A stretch of DNA of 49,781 nt from NCBI GenBank assembly GCA_026710325.1, contig JAPORH010000003.1:1-49781 (forward strand). The letters are read 5' to 3'. The notes beneath the pieces are model-generated. The model saw only the letters and a program-made list of their open reading frames with translations, was not told the origin of the DNA and did no database searches. The number at the start of each line of letters is the position of its first letter. Position 1 is the stretch's first letter. Source of the DNA: Litoreibacter sp. Lineage in GTDB: Bacteria; Pseudomonadota; Alphaproteobacteria; Rhodobacterales; Rhodobacteraceae. Position numbers and translations under genes: made by a program. This document shows positions 9,589 to 11,859 of the stretch, piece by piece.

Positions 9589-9603
9589 CAACTTGACGGC
9601 GCT

Positions 9604-10047
9604 ATGGATGAAATAAACCAGAAAATATTGCGCGAGTTGTCGCGCGACGGGCGGCTCAGCAATATCGAACTCGCTGATCGTGTCGGCCTTTCCCCTTCCG
9701 CGTGTCTGCGCCGTGTCCAAGACCTCGAAAAGCGCGGGGTGATCAAAGGCTACCGTGCCATTCTCGACCGCGACAAGATCGGAGCGGGCTTTGTCGCCTA
9801 TATCGCGGTCGGCCTGTCAGATCACTCCAAAGCGAGCCAAGAGGCGTTTGAGCGCGCGATCTCTCGCGCCCATGAGGTGCGGGAATGCCACAATATCACA
9901 GGAACGGTCGAATATATGCTGCGTGTCGAGTGTGCCGATCTGCCCAGCTACAAACATTTCCACACTGAAATCCTCGGCGTGCTGCCGCAGGTCAACGCAA
10001 TCACAAGCTATATCGTTATGGGGTCGCCGAAAGATGAGCGGGCCTAA
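9604..10047 (+). CDS. Lrp/AsnC family transcriptional regulator
   Basis: A 147-aa regulator. The N-terminal winged helix-turn-helix starts MDEINQKILRELSRDGRLSN and has IELADRVGLSPSACLRRVQ as the DNA-recognition part. The C-terminal RAM domain binds amino acids and multimerises (AYIAVGLSDHS, HNITGTVEYMLRVECADL). I chose the ATG at 9604 because the 13 earlier in-frame residues do not fit the family. Divergent to the LysE-family exporter, so it probably senses an amino acid and switches the exporter on. Effector identity is unknown. Confidence 0.93.
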   Translation: MDEINQKILRELSRDGRLSNIELADRVGLSPSACLRRVQDLEKRGVIKGYRAILDRDKIGAGFVAYIAVGLSDHSKASQEAFERAISRAHEVRECHNITGTVEYMLRVECADLPSYKHFHTEILGVLPQVNAITSYIVMGSPKDERA

Positions 10048-10064
10048 CATCCGGGCATAAAAAA

Positions 10065-10095
10065 ACGGTGGTGCCGGGAGGAGTGGCACCACCGT
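10065..10095 (-). ncRNA. CcsR-like hairpin 4, doubling as operon terminator
   Basis: An 11-bp stem (ACGGTGGTGCC with GGCACCACCGT) has a loop that reads ACTCCTCCC on the minus strand. On that strand it is followed by a run of seven T. It is therefore both the last of four C-rich-loop hairpins and a good intrinsic terminator for the DUF1127/CcsR transcript. It also lies just after the Lrp gene stop and may end that plus-strand transcript, although no T run follows on that side. Confidence 0.8.
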
Positions 10096-10104
10096 CCTTA
10101 TTGA

Positions 10105-10139
10105 TATGGTCTCCCCAGGGAGGAGGCGGGTCGACCATA
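10105..10139 (-). ncRNA. CcsR-like hairpin 3 with CCUCCUCCC loop
   Basis: A 7-bp stem (TATGGTC with GACCATA) plus an inner CCC/GGG helix encloses the exact motif CCTCCTCCC on the minus strand (10118-10126). This is the anti-Shine-Dalgarno motif that defines CcsR (cuckoo) RNAs of Rhodobacterales. Confidence 0.75.
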
Positions 10140-10141
10140 AG

Positions 10142-10181
10142 TGAAGCGCTCTTTTGGGAGGAAAGTAAAAGCTACGCTTCA
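10142..10181 (-). ncRNA. CcsR-like hairpin 2 with C-rich loop
   Basis: The stem TGAAGCG/CGCTTCA, with an inner CTTTT/AAAAG helix, encloses TTTCCTCCC on the minus strand (10156-10164). It has the same design as its three neighbours. Confidence 0.75.
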
Positions 10182-10183
10182 GA

Positions 10184-10225
10184 TTGTCCGGGCGATCAAT
10201 CGGGAGGAAATTTCGTCCCGGACAA
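10184..10225 (-). ncRNA. CcsR-like hairpin 1 with C-rich loop
   Basis: A 9-bp stem (TTGTCCGGG with CCCGGACAA) continues with CGA/TCG and encloses TTTCCTCCC on the minus strand (10202-10210). It begins five bases after the stop of the DUF1127 gene, as the first hairpin of the array. Confidence 0.75.
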
Positions 10226-10230
10226 AACTC

Positions 10231-10437
10231 TTAGTTCTTATATGCGGCCTCGTATGCGATCCGCTTGATCTCGGAGCGGTGAATGCCCAGGTCTGCCAAT
10301 TCGCGGTTGGAGAGAGCTTTGAGCTCGCCCAATGTTGTGCGATATACTTTGGCGCGGGCGGCGCGCTCGGTGAATTCTGCGATGACGGCGCGAACGCGGT
10401 CAAAGAGGCTGTTTGTCGTTGTGTTTGTGTATGCCAC
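10231..10437 (-). CDS. ccaF1: DUF1127 small protein, CcaF1-like
   Basis: A 68-aa basic protein whose C-terminal half is a DUF1127 (YjiS-like) domain: RTTLGELKALSNRELADLGI, then HRSEIKRIAYEA. In Rhodobacter sphaeroides the equivalent protein CcaF1 binds RNA and is made from the same transcript as four CcsR sRNAs; here four hairpins follow the stop codon. I start at GTG 10437, preceded by GAGAG at good spacing. A frame-matching ATG at 10512 would overlap the predicted -10 element, so it is unlikely. The role is presumably oxidative or heat stress adaptation through RNA turnover; this is inferred from the homologue. Confidence 0.85.
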   Translation of the reverse strand: MAYTNTTTNSLFDRVRAVIAEFTERAARAKVYRTTLGELKALSNRELADLGIHRSEIKRIAYEAAYKN

Positions 10438-10776
10438 TTTATTCTCTCTTTCGTTCGGTTGACTGATCGTTGGGCGGTCCCTGTCGTCAGCGTCTTGGTC
10501 GTTGTGTTTCATAATTAGGGTTTTGCTGCGCTGCCGCAAGACTTGCTGTGACAATGCTGCTATGCAGAAAATGCATGGCTTAAGTATCTGATTTATATGG
10601 TTAACCTTGGGGCAATCTGCTCAAAAAAGCGCCGCTTTATGGATGGGTTTTGTTTACAAAAAGTTCATATTTGCGGCGCGGCGCGGCGAATAGTTGGCAT
10701 TCTTGAGCCCATGGGGGTTGTTCTTTTGTTCTGTGCCCTACAAGTAAGCAAATGACCGAGTAGGAGGCATTTACCA
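10438..10776. other. Intergenic region between DUF1127 operon and apbC
   Basis: This divergent spacer holds the leader and promoter of the DUF1127 operon on the minus strand. It also holds a GGTTAACC palindrome (10599-10606) resembling CtrA half-sites, an AT-rich stretch, a GCGGCGCGGCGCGGCG run (10673-10688), and the apbC ribosome binding site. I see no further gene. Confidence 0.6.
10512..10540 (-). promoter_or_regulatory. Promoter of the DUF1127/CcsR operon
   Basis: On the minus strand, CTTGCGG (10540-10534) and CCTAATTA (10519-10512) form a -35/-10 pair about 75 bases before the GTG start. The CTTG at -35 and C-rich edge of the -10 fit RpoH-type promoters, which drive the Rhodobacter equivalent. 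A sigma-70 reading (TTGCGG, N16, TAATTA) is also possible. Confidence 0.5.
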
Positions 10777-11859
10777 ATGTCGGTGAGTAAAGAGCAGGTT
10801 TTGGCCGCGTTGAGCAGCCTCGGATTGCCCGATGGCGGCGACGTCGTGTCTCGTGACATGGTCCGCGCGCTGCAAATCGACGGCGGAACGGTACGATTCG
10901 TGCTCGAAGTCTCTCCCGAACAGGCCCCTAAATTCGCCGGTGTTCGTGACGCGGCCCAAGCCGTCGTTCAACGGTTGGAGGGCGTGGATAGTGTGTCGGT
11001 CGTACTTACGGCACACGGGCCTGCAGCAAAGCAAGCGACACCTGCAGGCGCGCCGCCCTCACTAAAAGTGGGCGGCCATCCCAAGCCTCAGGCCGAACCC
11101 ACCAAACCGTCCGGCGTCGACCGCATCGTTGCCATTGCGTCCGGCAAAGGAGGGGTAGGTAAATCCACCCTGTCCTCCAACCTGGCTGTGGCGCTGGCCA
11201 AGCAGGGCCGCAAAGTCGGGCTGCTCGATGCCGATATATACGGGCCGTCGCAGCCGCGCATGATGGGCGTCTCTGACCGGCCAAAATCGCCAGATGGCAA
11301 AACCATCATTCCGTTAACGGCACATGGCGTGACGATGATGAGCATTGGTTTGATGGTCGAGCCTGAGAAAGCCGTCGTCTGGCGTGGGCCCATGTTGATG
11401 GGCGCGCTTCAGCAAATGATGGGGCAGGTGGAATGGGGCGAGCTTGATATCTTGCTCGTCGACCTGCCGCCCGGCACTGGCGATGTGCAACTCACGCTGT
11501 GCACCAAAACCCAGATGACCGGCGCGATTGTGGTCTCAACCCCGCAAGATGTGGCGCTGCTGGATGCGCGCAAGGCGCTCGACATGTTCAAGACGTTGCA
11601 CACGCCGGTTCTGGGTCTCGTCGAGAACATGTCGCATTATATATGTCCAAGCTGCGGGCATGAGGCGCATATCTTCGGCCATGGCGGCGTGGCAGAAGAG
11701 GCGCAGAAACTTGGTCTTCCGTTCCTTGGGGAAATCCCGCTCGAGCTTGAGGTCCGCCTTGCGGGTGATGCAGGCACGCCGATCTCTGCGGGCGACAGCA
11801 AAGTGGCCGAAGCCTACGCCACCCTCGCCAAACGGCTCATTGACGGTGGTATGGCGTAA
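10777..11859 (+). CDS. apbC: Mrp/ApbC iron-sulfur cluster carrier ATPase
   Basis: A 360-aa P-loop NTPase that binds and transfers [4Fe-4S] clusters to apo-proteins in the cytoplasm. The N-terminal 80 residues form a MIP18/DUF59-like domain, followed by a proline- and alanine-rich linker. The Mrp core contains [20 protein letters not shown] (deviant Walker A, lysine about residue 129), [32 protein letters not shown], and the cluster-binding CxxC in [14 protein letters not shown]. The ATG has a strong ribosome binding site (TAGGAGG) nine bases upstream. It is the last gene before the dcw leader. Confidence 0.96.

Follow-up and report, generated by a model that had tools for sequence, protein, structure and literature searches.

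A DUF1127 gene with an array of anti-Shine-Dalgarno-type hairpins and a conserved PhaR-type box in its promoter region in Litoreibacter

The DUF1127 gene and its four hairpins

The window (the whole stretch of DNA analysed, 49,781 nucleotides from Litoreibacter sp.) carries on its minus strand a short ccaF1-like DUF1127 gene (10231-10437; GTG start at 10437, stop at 10231) that encodes 68 amino acids. Its product matches PF06568 with 44.5 bits against a cut-off of 23.3 and is 66-74% identical to its counterparts in the seven closest genomes of the genus. The divergent neighbour, mrp, encodes an Mrp/ApbC-type Fe-S carrier ATPase (10777-11859, plus strand; PF10609, 331.9 bits), the convergent neighbour encodes an Lrp/AsnC regulator (9601-10047, plus strand; PF13412 and PF01037), and a LysE-type transporter gene also neighbours the locus. 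Four stem-loops follow the DUF1127 gene on the same strand, as a sequence-only reading of this DNA had described, and the hairpin region gave a folding z-score of -5.61, with an equally good fold in none of 200 shuffles. The folds also confirmed that CCUCCC lies in all four loops and that one loop is exactly the complete nine-base motif CCUCCUCCC.

Hairpin 1 (10184-10225, minus strand) has the loop UUUCCUCCC with UCCUCCC at 10208-10202 and a single-hairpin z-score of -4.5; a weak two-pair helix formed within this loop when it was folded freely. Hairpin 2 (10142-10181, minus strand; z -3.3) shares the loop UUUCCUCCC on a stem with compensatory changes, while hairpin 3 (10105-10139, minus strand; z -2.6) presents CCUCCUCCC at 10126-10118 and aligns to the middle hairpin of Rfam ar14. 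Hairpin 4 (10061-10099, minus strand; z -6.5) has the loop CUCCUCCC and runs into seven T at 10065-10059, which bears out the proposal that it doubles as an intrinsic terminator. UAAG in the linker between hairpins 3 and 4 (10100-10097, minus strand) is invariant in eight near genomes and is a possible cleavage site. The anti-Shine-Dalgarno (aSD) character ascribed to the loop motif has been shown for the ar14 RNA NfeR1 (PMC10746234), and we refer to hairpins of this type as aSD hairpins.

Within hairpin 1, the segment UCCUCCCGAUUGAU (10208-10195, minus strand) shows no variation across eight near genomes, the own genome included, and this invariance extends beyond the loop motif. It may reflect conservation for the inner stem of hairpin 1 instead of target pairing. 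Complements of UCCUCCCGAUUGAU were searched for in eight genomes at up to one mismatch and in the own genome, where the matches were inspected, at up to two. The own genome gave 30 matches, and of the 20 with loci a few precede start codons, one example being a gene for a probable TRAP-transporter binding protein (named by eye). The sole exact match was the locus itself. No specific target for hairpin 1 was taken from the own-genome matches inspected; a target common to the eight genomes may exist.

The genome contains four DUF1127 matches, with four aSD hairpins at the window locus versus 0, 0 and 1 elsewhere, so that an array is present at the window locus only. A hairpin behind another DUF1127 gene (L004) was excluded, TCCTCCTCC sitting there in a weakly closed loop.

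Covariance models, the check that the sequence-only reading had named, found both known RNA families here at scores below their gathering thresholds: ar14 (RF02344) over hairpins 2-4 (10060-10185, minus strand; 57.0 bits, E 7.4e-9, threshold 58.8) and CcsR1 (RF02791) over hairpins 3-4 (27.9 bits, threshold 65.3). We therefore leave the locus outside both Rfam families. The ar14 match in the window is the best of three genome-wide; another ar14-like match (C207, 30.6 bits) covers GC-rich hairpins after a frame for a small secreted protein and was rejected by eye as not of the aSD type.

The locus is of the CIN1 type (ccaF1-CcsR, or cuckoo RNA), a kind already known. A short DUF1127 gene lies immediately 5' of CcsR-like hairpins on one strand, and the hairpins are neighbours that combine the motif in their loops with variable stems, the full CCUCCUCCC standing in one of the four. 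CIN1 loci as usually described have two to four hairpins. The operon type proposed by the sequence-only reading thus agrees with the CIN1 locus as described for alphaproteobacteria, DUF1127 plus CcsR-like RNAs (PMC10253847). Its placement in a genus other than Rhodobacter also holds, the closest of the 80 promoter-scan matches listed (see below) being two uncultured Litoreibacter records. Its equation of the four hairpins with CcsR1, 2, 3 and 4 had to be given up, because the CcsR1 consensus in the Rfam alignment itself has two stem-loops, with the motif in each; the four hairpins look like about two CcsR-type units, with a hairpin pair as the unit of the array.

Hairpin arrays across the family

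DUF1127 genes similar to that of the window were found in 152 of 198 sampled family genomes and in all 21 genus genomes. Rfam ar14 proved a poor probe for arrays, since as a class-wide probe it matched 9 of 190 genomes and none above the cut-off, and a hairpin script was used instead. It was applied to 89 unique best-hit loci, namely the 69 highest-scoring of the 152 family genomes (the own genome included) and 20 further genus genomes, with the duplicates L002 and L096, the second hits L055 and L056 and the own genome's other DUF1127 genes excluded. A chain of 2-17 aSD hairpins lies 3' of the DUF1127 gene in 85 of these 89 loci. No chain of at least two was found at L057, L079, L090 and L091, L079 having two in another count.

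The loci together contributed 613 hairpins, of which 540 carry CCTCCTCCC, 42 carry CTCCTCCC, 29 have another form of TCCTCCC and 2 have something else. This upholds the earlier suggestion that selection acts on the loop, but the stems cannot be regarded as free to change: across the eight close genomes, the own included, double changes that preserve pairing occur in 15 of 42 predicted stem pairs, a rough count in that the alignment misplaces some hairpin 3 loops. These pair-keeping changes argue that the hairpins are selected as RNA.

In arrays of six or more hairpins the gaps alternate, with medians of 40 and 63, and therefore the unit looks like a hairpin pair; this points to growth of the arrays by duplication of such pairs. 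Hairpin numbers ranging from 2 to 17 would be consistent with a dosage of one seed. The longest arrays, with 14-17 aSD hairpins after one DUF1127 gene, are those of L022, L071, L067, L012, L025, L030, L065 and L094, in some of which the repeat spacing is near-equal.

A conserved promoter with a PhaR-type box

Upstream of the DUF1127 gene lies a conserved 25-bp dyad, ATGCATTTTCTGCATAGCAGCATTG (10552-10576, minus strand; consensus ATGCAATTGCTGCATRGCAGCATTG). When the best match anywhere in a locus on either strand was scored, 83 of the 89 loci came within 6 of 25 mismatches of this consensus, and shuffles (one per locus) never fell below 7. The core of the dyad, CTGCATAGCAG (10557-10567, minus strand), is a CTGC-N3-GCAG box that fits CTGCNNNGCAG, the published binding sequence of Rhodobacter sphaeroides PhaR (introduction of PMC12542648), a repressor that senses the storage bioplastic PHB. 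Of 88 loci with two or more hairpins within 1 kb (L055 and L056 included; 320 nt examined), 62 have an exact box, against a Markov expectation of 1.2 and a maximum of 5 in 200 simulations, and 26 have none. Its centre is nearly fixed, as 58 of 63 exact boxes read CTGCATAGCAG or CTGCATGGCAG. Two DUF1127 genes that lack an array, L057 and L090, likewise have an exact box upstream.

A second element, TTGCGGCAGCGCAGCA (10524-10539, minus strand), overlaps the -35 region and takes the form TTGTGCA-N3-GCAGCA in most of the promoter-scan relatives listed; the N7 of TTG-N7-GCAGCA starts with TGCA in 74 of 79 promoter-scan loci among the matches listed. The candidate -10 element, CCTAATTAT (10511-10519, minus strand), begins 17 nt past the TTG at 10539-10537 and was called by consensus only. 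Both the -35 and the -10 are termed RpoH-like by comparison with the RpoH consensus. In the 79 loci among the matches listed the majority profile is TTG-N17-CCTATNTT (TTG-N17-CCTAT), the window having TTG-N17-CCTAAT, and the -10 is variable, with a stricter expression fitting 31 of the 79. The ccaF1-CcsR promoter of R. sphaeroides is given as dependent on RpoHI/RpoHII (Figure 1 legend of PMC10253847).

The composite promoter was then sought in contigs of 84,980 species (257 billion bases), which yielded at least 116 stretches, 80 loci being read. By record name these 80 listed loci presumably all belong to Rhodobacterales, except one named Pseudomonadota only. Among the matches listed, a DUF1127 frame with its stop 257-383 nt downstream occurs in 72 of the 80 loci, as recognised by a profile that was built from family and genus loci partly on the same contigs (for example L084 and L189) and is therefore not independent of them. 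At least two hairpins follow in 66 of these 72; of the remaining six, five end no more than 159 nt past the gene, and at L222 the hairpins lie 139 nt apart, beyond the chain limit. Of the eight listed loci without DUF1127, three have just 60-163 nt of DNA left and five have aSD hairpins. Four of them (L195, L242, L259 and L265) present the promoter and then 5-7 aSD hairpins, with none or one on the opposite strand and no DUF1127 gene detected, while L215, the weakest fit, has four scattered aSD hairpins and again no detected DUF1127. Among the matches listed, all 77 readable loci thus lead into DUF1127, aSD hairpins or both.

These loci bear on the view that the hairpins are only mRNA stabilisers plus a terminator, their loop motif being a protein site, for instance for the DUF1127 protein, and not an aSD seed. 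The DUF1127 protein CcaF1 of R. sphaeroides does bind RNA (PMC10253847, PMC12501420), which would suit such a site. However, arrays stand behind the promoter with no DUF1127 gene detected between, and an ntrB reporter is lowered by NfeR1, an ar14 RNA that carries this motif, but not by a variant with mutations in all three of its motifs (PMC10746234). We consider a protein site improbable, and take the loops as probable aSD seeds in what follows.

A second alternative is that the dyad is an operator of the divergent mrp gene and lies near the RNA operon by chance. It draws on the frequency of mrp, which was found in 63 of the 80 promoter-scan loci among the matches listed and in 57 of 96 family, genus and own-genome loci, 40 of the 96 offering only about 0.4 kb of upstream sequence. 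The dyad is nevertheless retained, with 0-4 mismatches, in eight loci without mrp in the 1.5 kb upstream (L007, L008, L010, L027, L028, L032, L053 and L054), and hence follows the RNA operon. It stands 12 or 13 nt from the second element (TTG-N7-GCAGCA) in all 81 cases among the matches listed, the pattern having permitted 11-14, and the box also precedes the array-less DUF1127 genes L057 and L090. An mrp operator is accordingly very improbable, and the dyad is treated below as part of the promoter of the RNA operon.

The phasin gene, PhaR and the proposed working of the operon

PhaR is encoded in the own genome (C61; PF07879, 95.7 bits; PF05233, 40.8 bits). It was also found in 20 of 21 genomes of the genus and, within the family, in 59 of 61 and in 43 of 44 genomes; with such near-universal occurrence, the presence of PhaR is hardly informative. 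Three array genomes without a PhaR match decide nothing on PhaR control: G003, a complete genome, has a broken box core, while G098 and G207, which are 84% and 57% complete, have intact boxes.

In the own genome, the gene that precedes phaR has no Pfam match and is phasin-like by eye. Two exact boxes lie upstream of it, and CTCCTCCC occupies a hairpin loop 28 nt past its stop (L187 in C61, minus strand, about 1863-1833). By strict criteria (a loop with TCCTCCC, 8 or more enclosing pairs, an energy below -10 kcal/mol, at most 100 nt from the stop), an aSD hairpin lies behind the phasin gene at 20 of 20 phaR loci of the genus but behind only 1 of 416 control genes, which were of at least 150 amino acids and came from the window and from the 80 promoter-scan loci among the matches listed. 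Although these 20 genomes are relatives, their phasin hairpins have different stems. Under a looser test in the wider family, the hairpin lies behind 9 of 13 recognised phasin genes and a box upstream of 12 of the 13; no phasin was recognised in 16 of 29 loci.

A second phasin gene of the own genome (C78), beside phaC, has no aSD hairpin. Two TGCTGCATTGCAGCA palindromes lie between it and phaC (L174; C78:976-1019), and palindromes of the same type are found between phaC and a phasin gene in G213 and G214 (Pfam assignments being those of the own genome).

A different regulator at the dyad, for instance of the LysR type, would leave the CIN1-type RNA operon as it is and take PHB out of its control. 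The dyad exceeds a PhaR box in length, and its centre is nearly fixed, whereas the phasin boxes vary in theirs; an additional regulator, or another one, may therefore act here. The box is moreover retained in G098 and G207, two incomplete genomes without a PhaR match, and in Rhizobiales the LysR-type regulator VtlR/LsrB controls small RNAs together with a small hypothetical protein (PMC7486931). Yet the core of the dyad agrees exactly with the box published for R. sphaeroides PhaR (PMC12542648), palindromes of the same type stand between phaC and a phasin gene in the own genome, G213 and G214, and the phasin gene beside phaR has an aSD hairpin too. VtlR/LsrB itself was set aside, as its box, GCAT-N3-TG-N3-T (PMC7486931), is unmatched in the dyad when judged by eye. 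Control by another regulator in place of PhaR is, on balance, rather unlikely.

We therefore regard as probable a CIN1-type operon with an RpoH-like promoter that is repressed by PhaR through the dyad, released by PHB, and equipped with aSD loops that lower translation. A single transcript would comprise the mRNA of the small CcaF1-like DUF1127 protein and four 3' hairpins that are cut into small RNAs. By analogy with work in R. sphaeroides (PMC10253847, PMC8625941, PMC8307010), RNase E would excise the hairpins, probably helped by the DUF1127 protein. The exposed UCCUCCC loops would then pair with GGGAGGA-like Shine-Dalgarno sequences and lower the translation of many mRNAs, as the NfeR1 results suggest. 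Transcription would start at the RpoH-like promoter through the stress sigma factor RpoH, in keeping with the RpoHI/RpoHII promoter of R. sphaeroides, and PhaR would hold the operon down by binding the CTGC-N3-GCAG dyad and perhaps also the related element across the -35. PHB granules, which in other species titrate PhaR, would free the operon and, with it, the phasin mRNA, which has a 3' aSD hairpin of its own. An sRNA under PhaR is already known from Sinorhizobium meliloti, where PhaR represses MmgR (PMC12542648, PMC8401924). For Litoreibacter, we infer PhaR binding at the dyad, the direction of control and the mRNA targets from sequence.

For the Rhodobacteraceae, a broader proposal, to which we give even chances, is that stored PHB controls a two-part aSD RNA network. 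PhaR would release both the DUF1127-hairpin array, with its 2-17 hairpins and a dosage tuned by pair duplication, and the phasin mRNA with its 3' hairpin, and RpoH would add a stress input. The conserved core would then lie in the array rather than in the DUF1127 protein, given the four loci in which promoter and array occur with DUF1127 undetected. If this is true, carbon storage sets the translation of many Shine-Dalgarno-dependent genes, and the regulon has in the phasin hairpin another source of this RNA motif that is not linked to the array.

Earlier work connects CcsR RNAs and DUF1127 proteins with stress, C1 and pyruvate metabolism and phosphate control, and a clear metabolic input was not found in the literature searched. 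That search, which did not extend to the primary papers on the locus, also returned no relevant link of PhaR or phaP to CcaF1, CcsR or cuckoo RNAs; the conserved PhaR-type box in the promoter and the phasin 3' aSD hairpin were found in no paper searched, and the sequence-only reading mentions neither. The box, common to much of the family, offers a candidate metabolic input that can be tested through PHB and the loss of phaR.

Among known systems, the closest in organisation is the ccaF1-CcsR1-4 operon of R. sphaeroides (PMC10253847), which shares the DUF1127 gene, the CcsR-like 3' hairpins, the terminator at the end and putatively the RpoH-like promoter; the R. sphaeroides locus was not identified among the loci examined here. 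The four hairpins of the window amount to about half of four two-hairpin CcsRs, and three of its four loops are shorter than CCUCCUCCC. The account of the R. sphaeroides promoter in PMC10253847, as represented by its description of the locus, names only RpoHI/RpoHII and leaves a PhaR-type box unmentioned, whereas the window has such a box. The ar14 RNAs (NfeR1 of S. meliloti, RF02344) have three aSD-loop hairpins, and their model gives a full-length match of 57.0 bits to hairpins 2-4 of the window. NfeR1 is under LsrB and NtrC (PMC10746234); the window hairpins instead follow a DUF1127 gene and include a fourth.

The remaining parallels concern control. MmgR (ar8) of S. meliloti is an sRNA controlled by PhaR (AniA), and its operator CAATTGTGCACCGCAGCATTA (PMC12542648) is similar to the second promoter element found in most relatives, while in the window the halves of the second element stand one base further apart than those of the mmgR site. 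MmgR is a stand-alone RNA of 77 nt (PMC8401924), and the parallel with the window operon is one of operator and of proposed PhaR control. With the PhaR regulon of phasin and depolymerase genes the locus shares the CTGC-N3-GCAG box, found at 10567-10557 in the promoter region of a genome that encodes PhaR beside a phasin gene. It differs in that an aSD RNA operon lies behind the box of the window and that an aSD hairpin follows the phasin gene itself.
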